NCBI GenBank assembly: GCA_947465645.1
Contig: CANIBQ010000156.1
Location: 1 to 7,334 of the forward strand
Origin: Acidobacteriota bacterium
Lineage (GTDB): Bacteria; Acidobacteriota; Vicinamibacteria; Vicinamibacterales; UBA2999
Reading direction: 5' to 3'
Length of the DNA stretch: 7,334 nucleotides
How positions within the stretch are numbered: the first letter of the stretch is position 1; the number at the start of each line of letters is the position of its first letter. The position numbers and the translations under genes are program-made. The notes below the pieces were generated by a model. That model was not told the DNA's origin and searched no databases. It saw only the letters and a program-made list of their open reading frames with translations. Shown here one piece after another: positions 3,221 to 7,334 of the stretch.

Positions 3221-3229
3221 ATGTGCAGC

Positions 3230-3249
3230 CGTCCGGCTTAAGCCGGACG
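3230..3249. repeat. Perfect 20-bp palindrome after the M16 operon (REP-like or hairpin)
   Basis: CGTCCGGCTTAAGCCGGACG reads the same on both strands and starts 10 bp after the stop of the second M16 gene. The RNA could form a very stable GC-rich hairpin, but no T-run follows (next bases CTACGCACC), so it is not a classical intrinsic terminator. Similar GTCCGGCTT.AGCCGGAC palindromes seem familiar as dispersed repeats in acidobacterial-type genomes; that is recollection, not a search. It may end or stabilise the M16 mRNA. Confidence 0.55.
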
Positions 3250-3293
3250 CTACGCACCCACGCCTCTGGTGGTACCCTCTAACCCCCCGACCA

Positions 3294-3533: not shown

Positions 3534-4613
3534 CTACAGATTCCGCCGTAGAAAGCGCGTCAGCAGATAGCCGTCCATGAACTTGAAGGGCGCCATCCCG
3601 GTGCTGTAGTGCCCGCACGGCAGCACCGCCACTTCGTGCGGCAAGCCGCGCCGCGCGAACTCATCGATCAGCTGCCGCGACAGGTCGACCGGGAAGGTGA
3701 GGTCCCAGCGCGCGTAGACGAGGAGCGTCCGCGTGTCTCCCACCCGATCCAGGTAGGACCAGGGGCTGATCGGCCGCCACAGGTCGCGCAACGCATCGAC
3801 GTCGATATGTCCGTCGAGCCCCTGGCGCACGTGGCGCGTCGACAGGCCCCGCCACACGACGTCGGCGAACCACGGTGAGACGTGATTGAGCGCCTGTGCG
3901 CGGATGAGCGGCTCATGGGCAGCGGTCAGCATCGCGAGGCACGATCCGAGGCTGGTGCCGAGGATCCCGATCCGCTCGAACCCCTGCGCGGCGAGCCAGG
4001 CGACCGCTCGACGCGCATCCAGCACCGCCTGACGGCAGACCTGCACGGTCCGCACGACGTTCGAGCTGACGATGTAGTCGGCGCGTGTCAGTTCGGGCGG
4101 CATGCGCGCATCGTGGTACGGAAGGCTGAGGCGCAGGGCCGACACGCCGAAGCGGGCGAGCAGCCGCGACAGCCCGATGTGCCCGCCGGCGTCGGAGTTC
4201 CACTGCGGCAGCACCACGACCGCGCGGCCGCGTGTCGCTCCGGTGGTGCCCAGGGGCGCTTCGTCGCGCGCCGGAAACCATCGCCCGGCGACGATGTTGT
4301 TCTCCGGATGCGGAGTCCGAAGGGCGCTTGGAAACCGGAGGGTCCCCGCCTCTCCTCCGGCCCGCAGCGTCGCCGACGCCTCGGTGAACTCGTACTCGGT
4401 TGTTGGCGGCACATGGAAGAACGCCGGCGTGTCCCGCATCACGGTGTCCACCCACTGACGCACGAAATCGGCCGGGGGGACATCGGCGTGTGGACCACCG
4501 TCCACCACCGTGTCGGCGAGCCAGTCCAGCCCCCAGTCGAACGGCCGCACGACGCGATCCTTGCTGATGGACGCGAGGCGATGCTCCCAGGCGTGGAAGA
4601 CGCGGGTCAGCAC
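3534..4613 (-). CDS. Alpha/beta hydrolase (ABHD18-like)
   Basis: The 359-residue product has a complete serine-hydrolase triad: S221 in the nucleophile elbow GTSLG (219-223), D304 in YARWDLTFP, and H335 in CGHYSTG. The core strand 'RAVVVLPQWNSDAGGH' (130-145) and the 'LPYHDARMPPEL' loop (164-175) resemble the ABHD18-like group of alpha/beta hydrolases; the substrate is unknown, and an esterase or amide hydrolase is most likely. No signal peptide is seen. The GTG start at 4611-4613 (MLTRVFHAWEH) lies inside the end of the amidase gene (GTGCTGA, 7-bp overlap), so translation is probably coupled. The frame stays open far upstream of this point, giving an apparent 532-residue protein, but that extension is arginine-rich out-of-frame reading of the amidase gene and is not included. 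Last gene of a probable three-gene operon. Confidence 0.85.
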   Translation of the reverse strand: MLTRVFHAWEHRLASISKDRVVRPFDWGLDWLADTVVDGGPHADVPPADFVRQWVDTVMRDTPAFFHVPPTTEYEFTEASATLRAGGEAGTLRFPSALRTPHPENNIVAGRWFPARDEAPLGTTGATRGRAVVVLPQWNSDAGGHIGLSRLLARFGVSALRLSLPYHDARMPPELTRADYIVSSNVVRTVQVCRQAVLDARRAVAWLAAQGFERIGILGTSLGSCLAMLTAAHEPLIRAQALNHVSPWFADVVWRGLSTRHVRQGLDGHIDVDALRDLWRPISPWSYLDRVGDTRTLLVYARWDLTFPVDLSRQLIDEFARRGLPHEVAVLPCGHYSTGMAPFKFMDGYLLTRFLRRNL

Positions 4614-5938
4614 GCTTCGAACGCCTGCGCGCAGTCGAGTAGGTGACCCGTCGCGCCGATGCGACCGGCCAGTTGCGCGCCGACCGGGAGCCCGGCGGCG
4701 GTCGTGCCGCACGGGACGGTAATCGCCGGGTGTCCGGTGACGTTGAAGAGCTGCGTCAGTCGCAGCATGACAGTTCGCACCGGCTCGTCGACGGTGCCGA
4801 CGCGCACAGTGGCTGCGCCGAGCCTGGTGGCCGGCACGGCGAGCGCCGGCAGCAGCAGAGCGTCGCGGCCAACCAGTGCCGCGTCGACCTCGCGCCGAAG
4901 CACCAGCCGGCCACGCATCGCACGCGCATAGTCTTCCGCGAGCACGTAGCGCCCCATCTCCAGACGAATTCTGACGTTTGGCGTGTAGTCGTCCGGGCGT
5001 GTCTCGAGTCCGTGCGCGTGGAACGCAGCCGCCTCTGACAGGACGATGTGCAGGTAGATCGGCGCGAGGTCCACGGCGTGCGGGATCACCACATCGTCGA
5101 GGACGGCTCCCGCGCGCCGCAGCCGGTCGCATGCCGTGTCGAACGCCGCGGCCACCTCCACGTCGAGGAGCGAGAGAAAGTATTCGCGCGGAATCCCGAG
5201 ACGCAGGCCGCGAACGGGAAGAACGTCTGGCGTGTCCACGTGTCCCCGAAGCACGTCGAAGACCAGCCGCGCGTCTTCGACCGTGCGGGTCATCGGCCCG
5301 ACGTGGTCCAGCGTCGTGCTGAGCGGTACGACCCCGTCGGCCGGGATCTCGCCGGTCGACGGCTTCAGCCCGACGAGACCACAGGCGGCGGCCGGAATGC
5401 GAATCGACCCGCCCGTGTCGGTGCCGACCGAGGCCAGCGCCATCCCGGTTGCGACCGACACCGCGGAGCCACCGGACGATCCGCCTGGGGAGCGGTCCGC
5501 ATCGAGCGGATGGTGGACGGGACCGTAGGCGGAATCCTCGTTCGTGGTGCCAAACGCGAACTCGTGCAGGTTCGTCTTGCCGATGAAGACCGCGCCCGCT
5601 GCCCGCAGGCGCGTCGTCACCAACGCATCGGCTCGGGCAACGTGGCCCACGCGGACGCGCGAAGCAGCGGTCGTCGGCACGCCCTGGAGATCGATCAGGT
5701 CCTTGAGCGAGATGGGGATGCCGTGGAGCGGTCCGCGATCCTGGCCGGCGGCCAGTTCGCGATCGGCGGCACCCGCCTGCGCGCGCGCCTGGTCTGCGAG
5801 CACGGTGATGAAGGCGTTGAGCGACGGGTCTTGCTCGGCGATGATCGCCAGGCAGCCTTCGGTGATTCCCCGTGAGGTGAGGCGGCCCGAGCGCAGCGCC
5901 CGCGCGGCGTCAGCGATGGTTGTCAGCTCAGCGTGCAT
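4607..5938 (-). CDS. Amidase signature family enzyme
   Basis: This 443-residue enzyme hydrolyses a C-N amide bond with a Ser-cisSer-Lys triad. All three residues are visible: K79 in GIPISLKDLID, S154 in SPGGSSGGSA, and S178 in DTGGSIRIPAA, with the family spacing of 24 residues between the serines. 'GKTNLHEFAFGTTNEDSAYGPV' (120-141) is also typical. It resembles GatA of the tRNA-dependent amidotransferase, but the C-terminal GatA region (an EVKRRIMLGTY-like motif) is replaced by 'RIRLEMGRYVLAEDYARAMRGR', and no gatB or gatC is present, so a stand-alone amidase of unknown substrate is favoured. The start is ATG 5938 (MHAELTTIADAARAL), which overlaps the end of the upstream 66-aa gene by 11 bp. 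A longer in-frame ATG at 6091 only adds 51 arginine-rich residues read out of frame from that gene. No signal peptide is seen. Confidence 0.9.
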   Translation of the reverse strand: MHAELTTIADAARALRSGRLTSRGITEGCLAIIAEQDPSLNAFITVLADQARAQAGAADRELAAGQDRGPLHGIPISLKDLIDLQGVPTTAASRVRVGHVARADALVTTRLRAAGAVFIGKTNLHEFAFGTTNEDSAYGPVHHPLDADRSPGGSSGGSAVSVATGMALASVGTDTGGSIRIPAAACGLVGLKPSTGEIPADGVVPLSTTLDHVGPMTRTVEDARLVFDVLRGHVDTPDVLPVRGLRLGIPREYFLSLLDVEVAAAFDTACDRLRRAGAVLDDVVIPHAVDLAPIYLHIVLSEAAAFHAHGLETRPDDYTPNVRIRLEMGRYVLAEDYARAMRGRLVLRREVDAALVGRDALLLPALAVPATRLGAATVRVGTVDEPVRTVMLRLTQLFNVTGHPAITVPCGTTAAGLPVGAQLAGRIGATGHLLDCAQAFEAC

Positions 5939-6128
5939 CCGCACTCGCCGCAGGGACCGACGCTGACACCCTCGGCGTCGCTGGCTCGCCCGTCGGATCG
6001 CTGTTCCAGCCGGCGTTGCGTAGCGCCGAGGTGGAGTGCGCCAGCGCTTTGAGGAGCGGCCGCAGCTCCGGCAGTCCTCGCCGCTCGGCATCCGTGATGG
6101 CGTTCTCCAGCCAGGCGTTGATGGTCAC
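5928..6128 (-). CDS. Small protein upstream of the amidase, unknown family
   Basis: A 66-residue frame starts at GTG 6126-6128. Residues 1-42 look like two helices: INAWLENAITDAERRGLPEL (3-22), then RPLLKALAHSTSALRNAGW (23-41). The remainder (43-66) is Pro/Ala/Ser-rich and probably disordered. I do not recognise a named family, though the 'DA.RRGLPEL.PLL..LA..T.ALR.A.W' pattern looks like a conserved one. It ends 11 bp inside the amidase gene (TGA at 5928-5930), and the overlap suggests co-translation. By position it recalls small GatC or AtzG subunits that wrap around amidase partners, but the sequence does not match GatC. A helper subunit is a guess. No Shine-Dalgarno site is visible; TAACCT (6137-6142, minus strand) lies 8 nt upstream, so a leaderless mRNA is possible. 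Confidence 0.65.
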   Translation of the reverse strand: MTINAWLENAITDAERRGLPELRPLLKALAHSTSALRNAGWNSDPTGEPATPRVSASVPAASADAR

Positions 6129-6136
6129 GGGGTACG

Positions 6137-6177
6137 AGGTTACAGGGGACAGGTTACAGGGGACAGGTTACAGAGAC
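6137..6177 (+). repeat. Left 14-bp tandem repeat array (three copies)
   Basis: Copies are AGGTTACAGGGGAC at 6137-6150 and 6151-6164 (identical) and AGGTTACAGAGAC at 6165-6177 (one base shorter, one change), followed by a partial AGG. The array ends 8 bp before the stop codon of the four-helix-bundle gene. On its outer side, 8 bp separate it from the GTG of the 66-aa gene. Read outward on the minus strand, each unit contains CCCTGTAACCT. Confidence 0.9.
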
Positions 6178-6185
6178 AGGGTGAA

Positions 6186-6557
6186 TCAAGTTTGGGGTTC
6201 GAGGAGGCGGTTCCTGAGCGCGGTGAGCATCCGGCTCACCTCTGATACTCGCTCGAGCACTTCCGCGACTGACTTCGAATCCACCATCCCCAATCGTTCG
6301 ACGATCATGACATGGGTTTCGAGTTCCATGAGTGATCCTCGCGCGATAGCAATGAAATGCGCATAGTCGCGACGCGTTCCCCGCGCATGACCCTCGGCGA
6401 TATTCGCCGGGACGCCGACCGCTGCCCTCGTTGCCTGTTGAACAAGGCCGTACCGCTCTTCAACCGGAAACTGCTTCGCAAGGGCGTACACGGCAACCAC
6501 CAGGTCCATGCCCTTCTGCCAGACCGTAAGGTCTCGATGCGACTGAATCCTAGCCAC
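6186..6557 (-). CDS. Four-helix-bundle protein (23S rRNA intervening-sequence / S23 family)
   Basis: The 123-residue protein carries the family landmarks: DLTVWQKGMDLV (9-20), a PVEERYGLVQQATRA stretch (31-45), then GVPANIAEG (48-56) and FIAIARGSLMELETH (68-82). These belong to the four-helix-bundle family found as open frames in 23S rRNA intervening sequences of Leptospira, Coxiella and others and related to the Avd accessory protein of diversity-generating retroelements. Avd-like proteins form pentameric barrels that bind nucleic acid; the role here is unknown. The start is GTG 6555-6557, with a perfect AAGGAGG (minus strand, 6562-6568) only 4 nt upstream. The frame runs open upstream through the repeat and the antisense of pyruvate kinase, so longer versions are artefacts. 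Unlike most relatives with a known context it is not inside an rRNA gene, and no reverse transcriptase or template/variable repeat pair is seen. Confidence 0.9.
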   Translation of the reverse strand: MARIQSHRDLTVWQKGMDLVVAVYALAKQFPVEERYGLVQQATRAAVGVPANIAEGHARGTRRDYAHFIAIARGSLMELETHVMIVERLGMVDSKSVAEVLERVSEVSRMLTALRNRLLEPQT

Positions 6558-6585
6558 CCAGCCTCCTTCGCAAATATTGGAAGCG

Positions 6586-6618
6586 CCCCTGTAACCTGTT
6601 CCCTGTAACCTATAACCT
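6586..6618 (-). repeat. Right 14-bp repeat array (two copies plus a partial), inverted to the left array
   Basis: On the plus strand, CCCCTGTAACCT (6586-6597) and GTTCCCTGTAACCT (6598-6611) are followed by a partial ATAACCT (6612-6618). They are the reverse complement of the left units, with one base changed in the second copy. The array ends 5 bp before the ATG of pyruvate kinase and begins 18 bp beyond the Shine-Dalgarno site of the four-helix-bundle gene. Confidence 0.88.
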
Positions 6619-6623: not shown

Positions 6624-7334
6624 ATGCGACACACGAAGATCATCGCCACCGTTGGTCCGGCGACCGGCAGCGACGAGGCGATTCGGCAGCTGCTCGAGGC
6701 GGGCGTCGATGTCTTCCGGCTGAATTTCTCGCACGGCAATCACGACTCGCATGGCGCCGTGATTCGCCGCATCCGCGCGGCGGCGGCGGAGACCGGGCGA
6801 TGCGTCGCGATCCTGCAGGATCTCAGTGGACCGAAGATTCGCACCGGGCGCCTGCGGGGCGGGCAGCCGTTGCCGCTCGCGGCGGGCGACACGCTGACGA
6901 TCGAGGTCGGCGACTTCGAGGGTGAGCCCGGACGCGTCTCGACCACCTACGCTGACCTGCCCAGAGCCGTGCGCCCGGGCGATTCGCTTCTGCTCGACGA
7001 TGGCCGGATTCAGTTGCGCGTGCAGGCGGTGAGCGATCGCGCGCTGCAGACAGTCGTCGTCGATGGCGGTGCGCTCGGCGAGCACAAGGGGATCAACGCT
7101 CCTGGCGTGCTGCTGCCATCCGTCGGCATGACCCCGAAGGACCTCGACGATCTCCGGTTTGGCGTGAGCGCTGGCGTCGATCTGATTGCGCTCAGCTTCG
7201 TGCAGGGCCCGGACGACCTGAGTCGTGCCCGCGAGGCCGCGCGCACGGCGGGAGCCCCGAACATGCCGCTCGTCGCCAAGCTCGAGCGGCCGGAGGCGAT
7301 CACCCGCGTCGAGGAGATCCTTCACCTCGCCGAC
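6624..7334 (+). CDS. pyk: Pyruvate kinase, N-terminal 237 residues (cut by window edge)
   Basis: It catalyses the last glycolytic step, phosphoenolpyruvate + ADP to pyruvate + ATP, in the cytoplasm. The first 237 codons are present, about half of the usual 470-residue length. They include the N-terminal strand TKIIATVGPAT (4-14), the active-site stretch R32-L-N34-F-S36-H-G with the same numbering as E. coli PykF, and D66 in LQDLSGPKIR, a metal-binding position. The B domain runs from about 72 to 170 (with LLLDDGRIQL), and the A domain resumes with INAPGVLLPS and GVDLIALSFVQ. The catalytic lysine and metal-binding glutamate occur in VAKLERPEAI near the end. The frame leaves the window just before the expected GIMVARGDLG segment. 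ATG 6624 is the only sensible start: it gives the canonical N-terminus. The promoter probably lies in the adjacent repeat array. Confidence 0.95.
   Translation, partial: MRHTKIIATVGPATGSDEAIRQLLEAGVDVFRLNFSHGNHDSHGAVIRRIRAAAAETGRCVAILQDLSGPKIRTGRLRGGQPLPLAAGDTLTIEVGDFEGEPGRVSTTYADLPRAVRPGDSLLLDDGRIQLRVQAVSDRALQTVVVDGGALGEHKGINAPGVLLPSVGMTPKDLDDLRFGVSAGVDLIALSFVQGPDDLSRAREAARTAGAPNMPLVAKLERPEAITRVEEILHLAD

Follow-up and report, generated by a model that had tools for sequence, protein, structure and literature searches.

Organisation of the locus

The window, that is, the whole stretch of 7,334 nucleotides analysed here, carries close to its end a gene for a four-helix-bundle (4HB) protein of the PF05635/TIGR02436 family, enclosed by two inverted repeat arrays (6137-6181 and 6586-6618). 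This observation, first made in a sequence-only reading of the DNA that described a compact IVS-like unit, was upheld. The gene (6186..6557, minus strand; 123 aa) runs from a GTG start to a stop codon at 6186-6188, and an AAGGAGG Shine-Dalgarno site (6562..6568, minus strand), read from the sequence, lies four nucleotides before the GTG at 6557. The element, ~480 bp in size, fills the gap between two flanking features that lie outside it: a small conserved ORF starting at 6128 and the pyruvate kinase gene, pyk, whose ATG is at 6624. The small ORF (5928..6128, minus strand) encodes 66 aa beside the amidase gene, is conserved in relatives (67% identity in locus L111) and has no Pfam or NCBIfam match; from its position and size, adjoining an AtzE-like amidase, we presume a likeness to AtzG. 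The 5′ part of pyk (6624..7334, plus strand) matches PF00224 at 2.9e-62.

The left array (6137..6181, plus strand; the 3′ arm relative to the gene) consists of AGGTTAC/AGGGGAC heptads with a perfect period of 14 over 6137-6173, followed by a decayed end, AGAGACAGG. The right array (6586..6618, minus strand; the 5′ arm) ends 5 bp ahead of the pyk ATG and, with heptad words of this array quoted on the gene's strand, reads AGGTTAT AGGTTAC AGGGAAC AGGTTAC AGGGGCG. The outer arms (6137-6162 and 6586-6611; 26 nt) are complementary at 25 of 26 positions (96%) and stand 423 nt apart, in line with the single mismatch counted before; an alternative, shifted pairing (6144-6173 with 6589-6618) extends over 30 nt at 87%. 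The repeat had originally been described as a tandem 14-bp unit. This remains accurate for the left array, where 6137-6173 comprises 2.6 perfect copies of AGGTTACAGGGGAC (tandem-repeat score 74; 46 when scored at period 7, and 31-33 for the remaining four repeat rows). The 14-mer, with at most three mismatches, has six matches in the window versus 0.26 expected (0/200 shuffles reach six), five of them within or overlapping the two arrays. The underlying unit was refined to 7 bp, the 14-mer being composed of two related, alternating heptads, AGGTTAC and AGGGGAC; the words AGGTTAT and AGGGAAC of the right array are absent from the 14-bp unit.

Folded as RNA on the gene's strand, the arrays are predicted to pair around the gene (-210.5 kcal/mol, z -3.3, with 0/100 shuffles equally stable). 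No Rfam family reached its gathering score anywhere in the window. A further short palindrome-like stretch, GTCCGGCTTAAGCCGGAC, was read from the sequence at 3225-3260, after the second M16 peptidase gene.

The encoded protein

The window 4HB protein matches PF05635 at 4.1e-36 (123.9 bits, cut-off 33.8) and TIGR02436 at 5.1e-34; matches to Avd models are weak and below cut-offs (21 bits versus 80). Relatives at E ≤ 0.001 numbered 2937 among 2980 candidates, the best 120 being listed. The AlphaFold2 model consists of four helices (mean pLDDT 93.3), and in a Foldseek search with it XCC0516 (2gsc, 50% identity) came first and BT_0352 (2rld) second, followed by Avd chains of diversity-generating retroelements with TM of about 0.72-0.82. 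XCC0516 is described as a homopentamer in PMC4990558, which presents the S23/IVP family as one of no known function, and the kinship of PF05635 with Avd is pointed out in PMC10053308. This kinship makes a reverse-transcriptase route conceivable for 4HB units.

Among the eight window proteins scanned there was no reverse transcriptase and, as already remarked in the sequence-only reading, no transposase domain (Pfam); its comparison with RAYT proteins is kept here as an analogy only. In one orthologous pair of 4HB genes (L162/L164), dN was 0.018 versus a dS of 0.171 (dN/dS 0.11), and that 4HB protein is therefore kept by selection.

The same junction in relatives

When 297 Acidobacteriota genomes were searched with the amidase, 28 had a match at E ≤ 1e-110, the best at 68% identity; 12 loci were fetched, and none contains a 4HB match. 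The proposal that relatives might hold empty amidase-pyk sites was borne out in L112, L113 and L117, where pyk is separated from the next gene by 81, 209 and 18 bp, respectively, with no array in the sequence inspected. Another ORF lies between pyk and the amidase side in L118, L119 and L121, and the remaining six loci have no pyk match within the fetched flank. Sequence reading suggests that this ORF is O-methyltransferase-like; in L118 and L119, where it precedes the amidase, NCBIfam gives it no name. The candidate unit of the window is absent from the same pyk-amidase junction in syntenic relatives.

Occurrence around related genes

Loci were fetched from genome contigs by protein similarity alone, and the best 80 of 162 relatives were kept. 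They span Acidobacteriota, Planctomycetota, Cyanobacteriota, Chloroflexota, Pseudomonadota, Bacteroidota, Armatimonadota, a Methanosarcinales archaeon and others, and 78 of them had enough flank to test. Flank self-match at a lag of seven (at least 18/21) was found in 33/78 4HB loci versus 20/585 control windows; at the same cut, lags 4-6 and 8-13 gave 0/78 loci, and lag 14, the harmonic of seven, gave 26/78. The inverted flank pair was above the 99th percentile of control windows in 46 of the 78 loci and above the 95th in 53.

A wider pooled set, partly drawn from eight genomes chosen because they hold arrays, started from 216 loci (201 with a 4HB ORF, 193 with flanks, 175 distinct) and yielded a lag-7 match of at least 17/21 in 125/175 loci versus 18/346 control windows, with 12 loci at lag 8 and five at lag 9. 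Period 7 in both flanks (16/21) characterised 80/175 loci versus 1/346 controls. The match between upstream and downstream flanks exceeded the 95th percentile of other loci's flanks in 130/175 loci when inverted and in 35/175 when direct; the 45/175 loci with an inverted match below this cut count against the pattern. The word itself varies by locus (AGGGAAC, GGGAGTC, CAGTAGC, AGGCAGT, GTTGCTA and so on), and by eye a few loci (L157, L163 and L160) have arms of period 8 or 9. In two Acidobacteriaceae (L046 and L064), 4HB units with CAGTTGC-type arms were read between a gene end and a queE-like gene.

The 4HB tree (75 rows) has 33 phylum-label changes, the minimum possible being 14; 8/71 inner branches are well supported. 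It was not taken as proof of transfer. The predicted hairpin unit recurs around 4HB genes in many phyla. The earlier reader had named restriction of the arrangement to this one locus as a refutation; gene-linked units at unrelated loci, together with gene-less inverted arrays, show that it is not so restricted.

Copies and gene-less arrays within genomes

Of 33 regions inspected for within-genome copies in G005, G273, G481 and G476, 28 gave a 4HB ORF by profile and five, all of G005 (L206, L207, L208, L210 and L211), gave none. None of the four genomes contained near-identical 4HB copies (median pairwise identity 31-41%, best 84%); copies within genomes are mostly old. G481 has three units at different places with proteins 72-84% identical. 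Two of the pairs they form match in their 5′ arms (27.0 and 29.5), which is compatible with copying inside G481; the third pair scores 6-15, as do most pairs elsewhere. In G005, the two units with 75% protein identity have unlike arms (10.5).

A search for copies of the 14-mer had been suggested. As the heptad letters differ between loci, copies of one 14-mer are the wrong search, and exact-unit searches, which gave mixed results, were rejected as a test of mobility. Three tandem copies of GGGATTC occurred in 9/31 genomes, and G424, which owns the 4HB arm with this word, had four matches (two being its own arms), fewer than G441, G464, G446 and G445; three copies of AGGAGTC occurred in 4/31 genomes, including both with that 4HB arm, G119 and G420.

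The window's class was surveyed in 149 genomes. PF05635 (E ≤ 1e-12) is present in 85 and the four-heptad pattern in 80: 64 have both, 21 the 4HB gene only, 16 the array only and 48 neither (p 1e-9, related genomes not being independent). When the genomes are split into three size bands the link persists in every band (p 0.0003 to 0.03); it is partly made up of the 4HB arms themselves. For 145 Cyanobacteria the respective counts are 37, 22, 20 and 66 (p 2e-6); in genomes of at least 4.5 Mb p is 0.04 at one array, and at three or more arrays the OR is 1.4 (p 0.5). The cyanobacterial link is weaker than that in the window's class and goes with genome size. Arrays are abundant without 4HB genes in G583, G425 and G439, the first of these (Cyanobacteria, 5.3 Mb) having 2552 four-heptad matches and no listed 4HB gene. 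From these counts and the weak cyanobacterial link it follows that arrays do not require a resident 4HB gene. Gene-less inverted arrays also occur in genomes with 4HB units; in G428 and G203 the dispersed arrays have the same word as the arm of the resident 4HB unit (GGAAACT and AGGGAAC, respectively), but those of G471 do not.

Units within protein genes

Genic cases were found via three kinds of host motif on both sides of the 4HB gene, in any frame. The 13 cases so identified comprise eight DUF1156 methylases, two histidine kinases and three Mod-like methylases; L010 and L088, with the upstream host motif only, were left out. Relative to the 4HB frame, the host frame is +2 in every one of the 13, and ten cases join both host parts in a single frame that runs from motif to motif without a stop. 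The other three are L006, with one stop, L016, with a frame shift, and L289, with a frame shift as well as one stop; additionally, L290 has a stop soon after the second host motif, and the 4HB of L051 is short. As L006 and L286 share a site, and so do L287, L289 and L290, each group probably going back to one origin, the number of independent events is below 13.

In L042, L054 and L058 the HATPase_c domain (Pfam) is matched as two separate stretches, of which the best one begins at profile position 38, 38 and 36, respectively; the same holds for CPSase_L_D1 (Pfam) in L071, identified by NCBIfam as the large subunit of carbamoyl-phosphate synthase (carB), likewise in two stretches; as the 4HB gene lies between, the second stretch would be on the far side of the insert. 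In L043 the host frame passes through the element without a stop, whereas another frame of the same strand has 20. Open read-through counts against RNA splicing as the reason for tolerance, because an excised intron needs no open frame. Taken alone, the +2 frame is open in 20/163 4HB loci. Synonymous-shuffle p-values for 13 genic loci (combined 3e-8) were set aside as biased, those loci having been picked for openness, and reliance was placed on the hosts found by motif.

The DUF1156 methylase gene of L016 has uninterrupted relatives (e.g., L124, L126 and L128) among 13 genomes with a match out of 61 searched. In L016 the 4HB unit follows PVNP, a gene-less array lies further on, and both replace some host sequence; genic and intergenic units seem to replace some host DNA instead of inserting cleanly. 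L016 (after IGHLYPKV) and L006 (at the contig end), which belong to two phyla, also have a second, gene-less heptad array, located in both at one and the same later position of the DUF1156 methylase gene. Another reading concerns L247 (G203:C5, 2762-6388), where the 1209-aa frame of a dnaE2-type gene is not interrupted by the gene-less AGGGAAC arrays that it contains (near 4516-4560 and 5612-5640). The predicted units sit both at gene junctions and inside protein genes, and in the latter case the host frame mostly runs on through the unit.

Arms at orthologous sites

Upstream of dnaE2, 31 loci of the window's class were read, the junction itself being covered in all but L261; in L279 and L280 the upstream gene is a different one. 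A 4HB unit is present in L253, L255, L256 and L237 and a broken 4HB in L254; several others (e.g., L259, L262 and L269) have gene-less short-unit hairpins by eye, and still others nothing obvious. The dnaE2 product of L247 is an error-prone DNA polymerase by NCBIfam; the gene ahead of it looks imuB-like on sequence reading and receives no NCBIfam name. The arms of L253, L255 and L256 have one common word and cross-match, whereas those of L237 and L254 pair solely with their own partner (29.5 and 23.0 versus 6.5-11). At this one orthologous site the arms stayed complementary while the word changed.

A comparable site lies ahead of cas4, where 12 distinct Nostocales-type loci have 4HB units. Most arms there share one word, and only 5/12 rows have their own partner arm as best match; in L285, both arms have switched word (25 versus 6-11.5). 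In L018 (3911-7094) a 4HB unit follows cas6 and precedes cas4 and cas1 (NCBIfam). According to PMC3936711, cas loci contain 18 '23S_rRNA_IVP' genes, frequently close to cas4 or cas6, and units of the L018 type may explain 4HB genes reported as CRISPR-associated.

Interpretation

We consider it probable that the window harbours an IVS-type insertion element, in which a 4HB gene, together with the inverted arms on either side of it, each a tandem array of a short word (mostly 7 nt), would form a stem-loop in single-stranded DNA and in RNA and be tolerated there. Judged from comparison of the loci, insertion of the unit is supported; its movement by the 4HB protein is what we infer. The earlier reader's interpretation as a whole is partly supported. 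Several results weigh against an insertion element: near-identical copies are absent from the four genomes inspected, and the G005 pair has unlike arms; the inverted match is below the cut in 45/175 loci; the cyanobacterial co-occurrence weakens or disappears in larger genomes, and G583 has arrays in number with no listed 4HB gene; few rows at the Nostocales site favour their own arm; and host DNA seems to be replaced in part. The stem could make an insertion tolerable if the transcript were cut or shielded at it, and a host protein might carry the insert in a surface loop. The 4HB protein, presumably a ring as a relative of Avd and the pentameric XCC0516, may bind the stem of its own element and aid its copying or retention. 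The arms could be kept alike by one templating the other on hairpin folding (repair) or by selection for pairing, and gene-less heptad hairpins may be non-autonomous relatives or dependants of 4HB units.

A broader generalisation is put forward tentatively, and we give it rather less than an even chance. According to it, selfish hairpin elements, to which the 4HB proteins of the IVS/S23 family would belong, form a widespread class; period (7 nt) and self-complementarity, not sequence, would set their ends, and they would insert into rRNA, gene junctions and protein genes alike, being dual-coding in protein genes (host frame open, 4HB in another frame); the G-rich heptad hairpins of Xanthomonas, Nostoc and others would be their gene-less relatives.

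Purifying selection on the 4HB protein (L162/L164), the stability of the stem as RNA and vertical retention at the dnaE2 and cas sites would also be expected of a non-mobile cassette, in which the 4HB protein has a cellular function, its gene is regulated by a hairpin of its own made of the inverted heptads (a stem in the mRNA that RNase III cuts or that insulates translation), and spread occurs by ordinary horizontal transfer and recombination. We find this unlikely, as a regulatory hairpin leaves unexplained both the units in carB, histidine kinases and methylases with an open host frame and the gene-less counterparts of these hairpins in the same genomes. The compactness of the unit, its one gene and its terminal inverted repeats also recall a MITE or IS remnant on which an ordinary transposase acts in trans; most loci differ in their arm letters and have the period alone in common, unlike ends read by a sequence-specific transposase, and this origin seems very improbable.

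Another explanation takes heptad arrays for general slippage repeats, with 4HB genes merely placed where repeats are tolerated and no functional tie between the two. Heptads are among many bacteria the commonest of the longer simple repeats, according to PMC4679880 and PMC4692102, and the arrays abundant without 4HB genes (G583, G425, G439), the arms of period 8 or 9 and the weak co-occurrence in Cyanobacteria all point in this direction. Against it stand the rarity of period 7 in control windows of the same loci (20/585; 18/346), the inversion of the arms around the 4HB gene, and the association of array and 4HB gene in three genome-size bands of the window's class, partly via the 4HB arms themselves; we regard the slippage explanation as quite unlikely. 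If the element is of the IVS type, as we favour, a link between the S23/IVP family and G-rich heptad repeats would give both a testable role and explain the '23S_rRNA_IVP' genes reported in cas loci (PMC3936711), and in-frame dual-coding insertion would reveal how a selfish element of at least 400 bp survives inside conserved genes.

Comparison with known systems

IVS with S23 ORFs, G-rich heptads, Rickettsia palindromic elements (RPE) and '23S_rRNA_IVP' genes in cas loci are each known; among the titles and abstracts searched in the open-licence PMC literature we found neither a link between them nor a description of 4HB genes inside inverted heptad arrays. G-rich heptads, such as GGGAATC of Xanthomonas and GGGGA(C/T)T of Nostoc/Anabaena, are reported in PMC4692102, with 70 inverted close pairs in X. 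campestris; the authors could give them no function. TAACTGA heptamers are also known (PMC4679880). The window unit resembles the G-rich repeats in its tandem 7-nt units and differs in the 4HB gene between the arms, PMC4692102 mentioning neither S23 nor four helix.

With REP/RAYT systems the units have in common, by analogy, dispersed palindromic DNA possibly tied to one protein family; they differ in that no Y1 (HUH) transposase is among the eight window proteins and the arms are not a conserved sequence. Terminal inverted repeats are shared with MITE/IS elements. The four-helix-bundle fold (Foldseek TM about 0.72-0.82) is shared with Avd of diversity-generating retroelements, whereas the window protein stays below the Avd model cut-off (21/80 bits) and none of the eight window proteins is a reverse transcriptase. 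RPE are described as palindromic inserts held in frame within protein genes (PMC10969869), and in-frame insertion is likewise found for other 4HB units (10/13 motif-identified genic cases); RPE are about 150 bp long and without a 4HB gene, and the window copy is intergenic.

The 23S rRNA IVS with S23/IVP ORFs of Coxiella and Leptospira likewise have an ORF of the 4HB family within a terminal-inverted-repeat stem, the Coxiella IVS being 428 nt long with a 28-bp stem (PMC4990558). The window unit differs in its tandem heptad arms and in its location outside rRNA, at a gene junction with pyk and amidase as neighbours, its relatives occurring in protein genes as well. It agrees with these IVS in encoding a PF05635 protein and in its predicted 26-nt stem, paired at 96% with an RNA fold z of -3.3.
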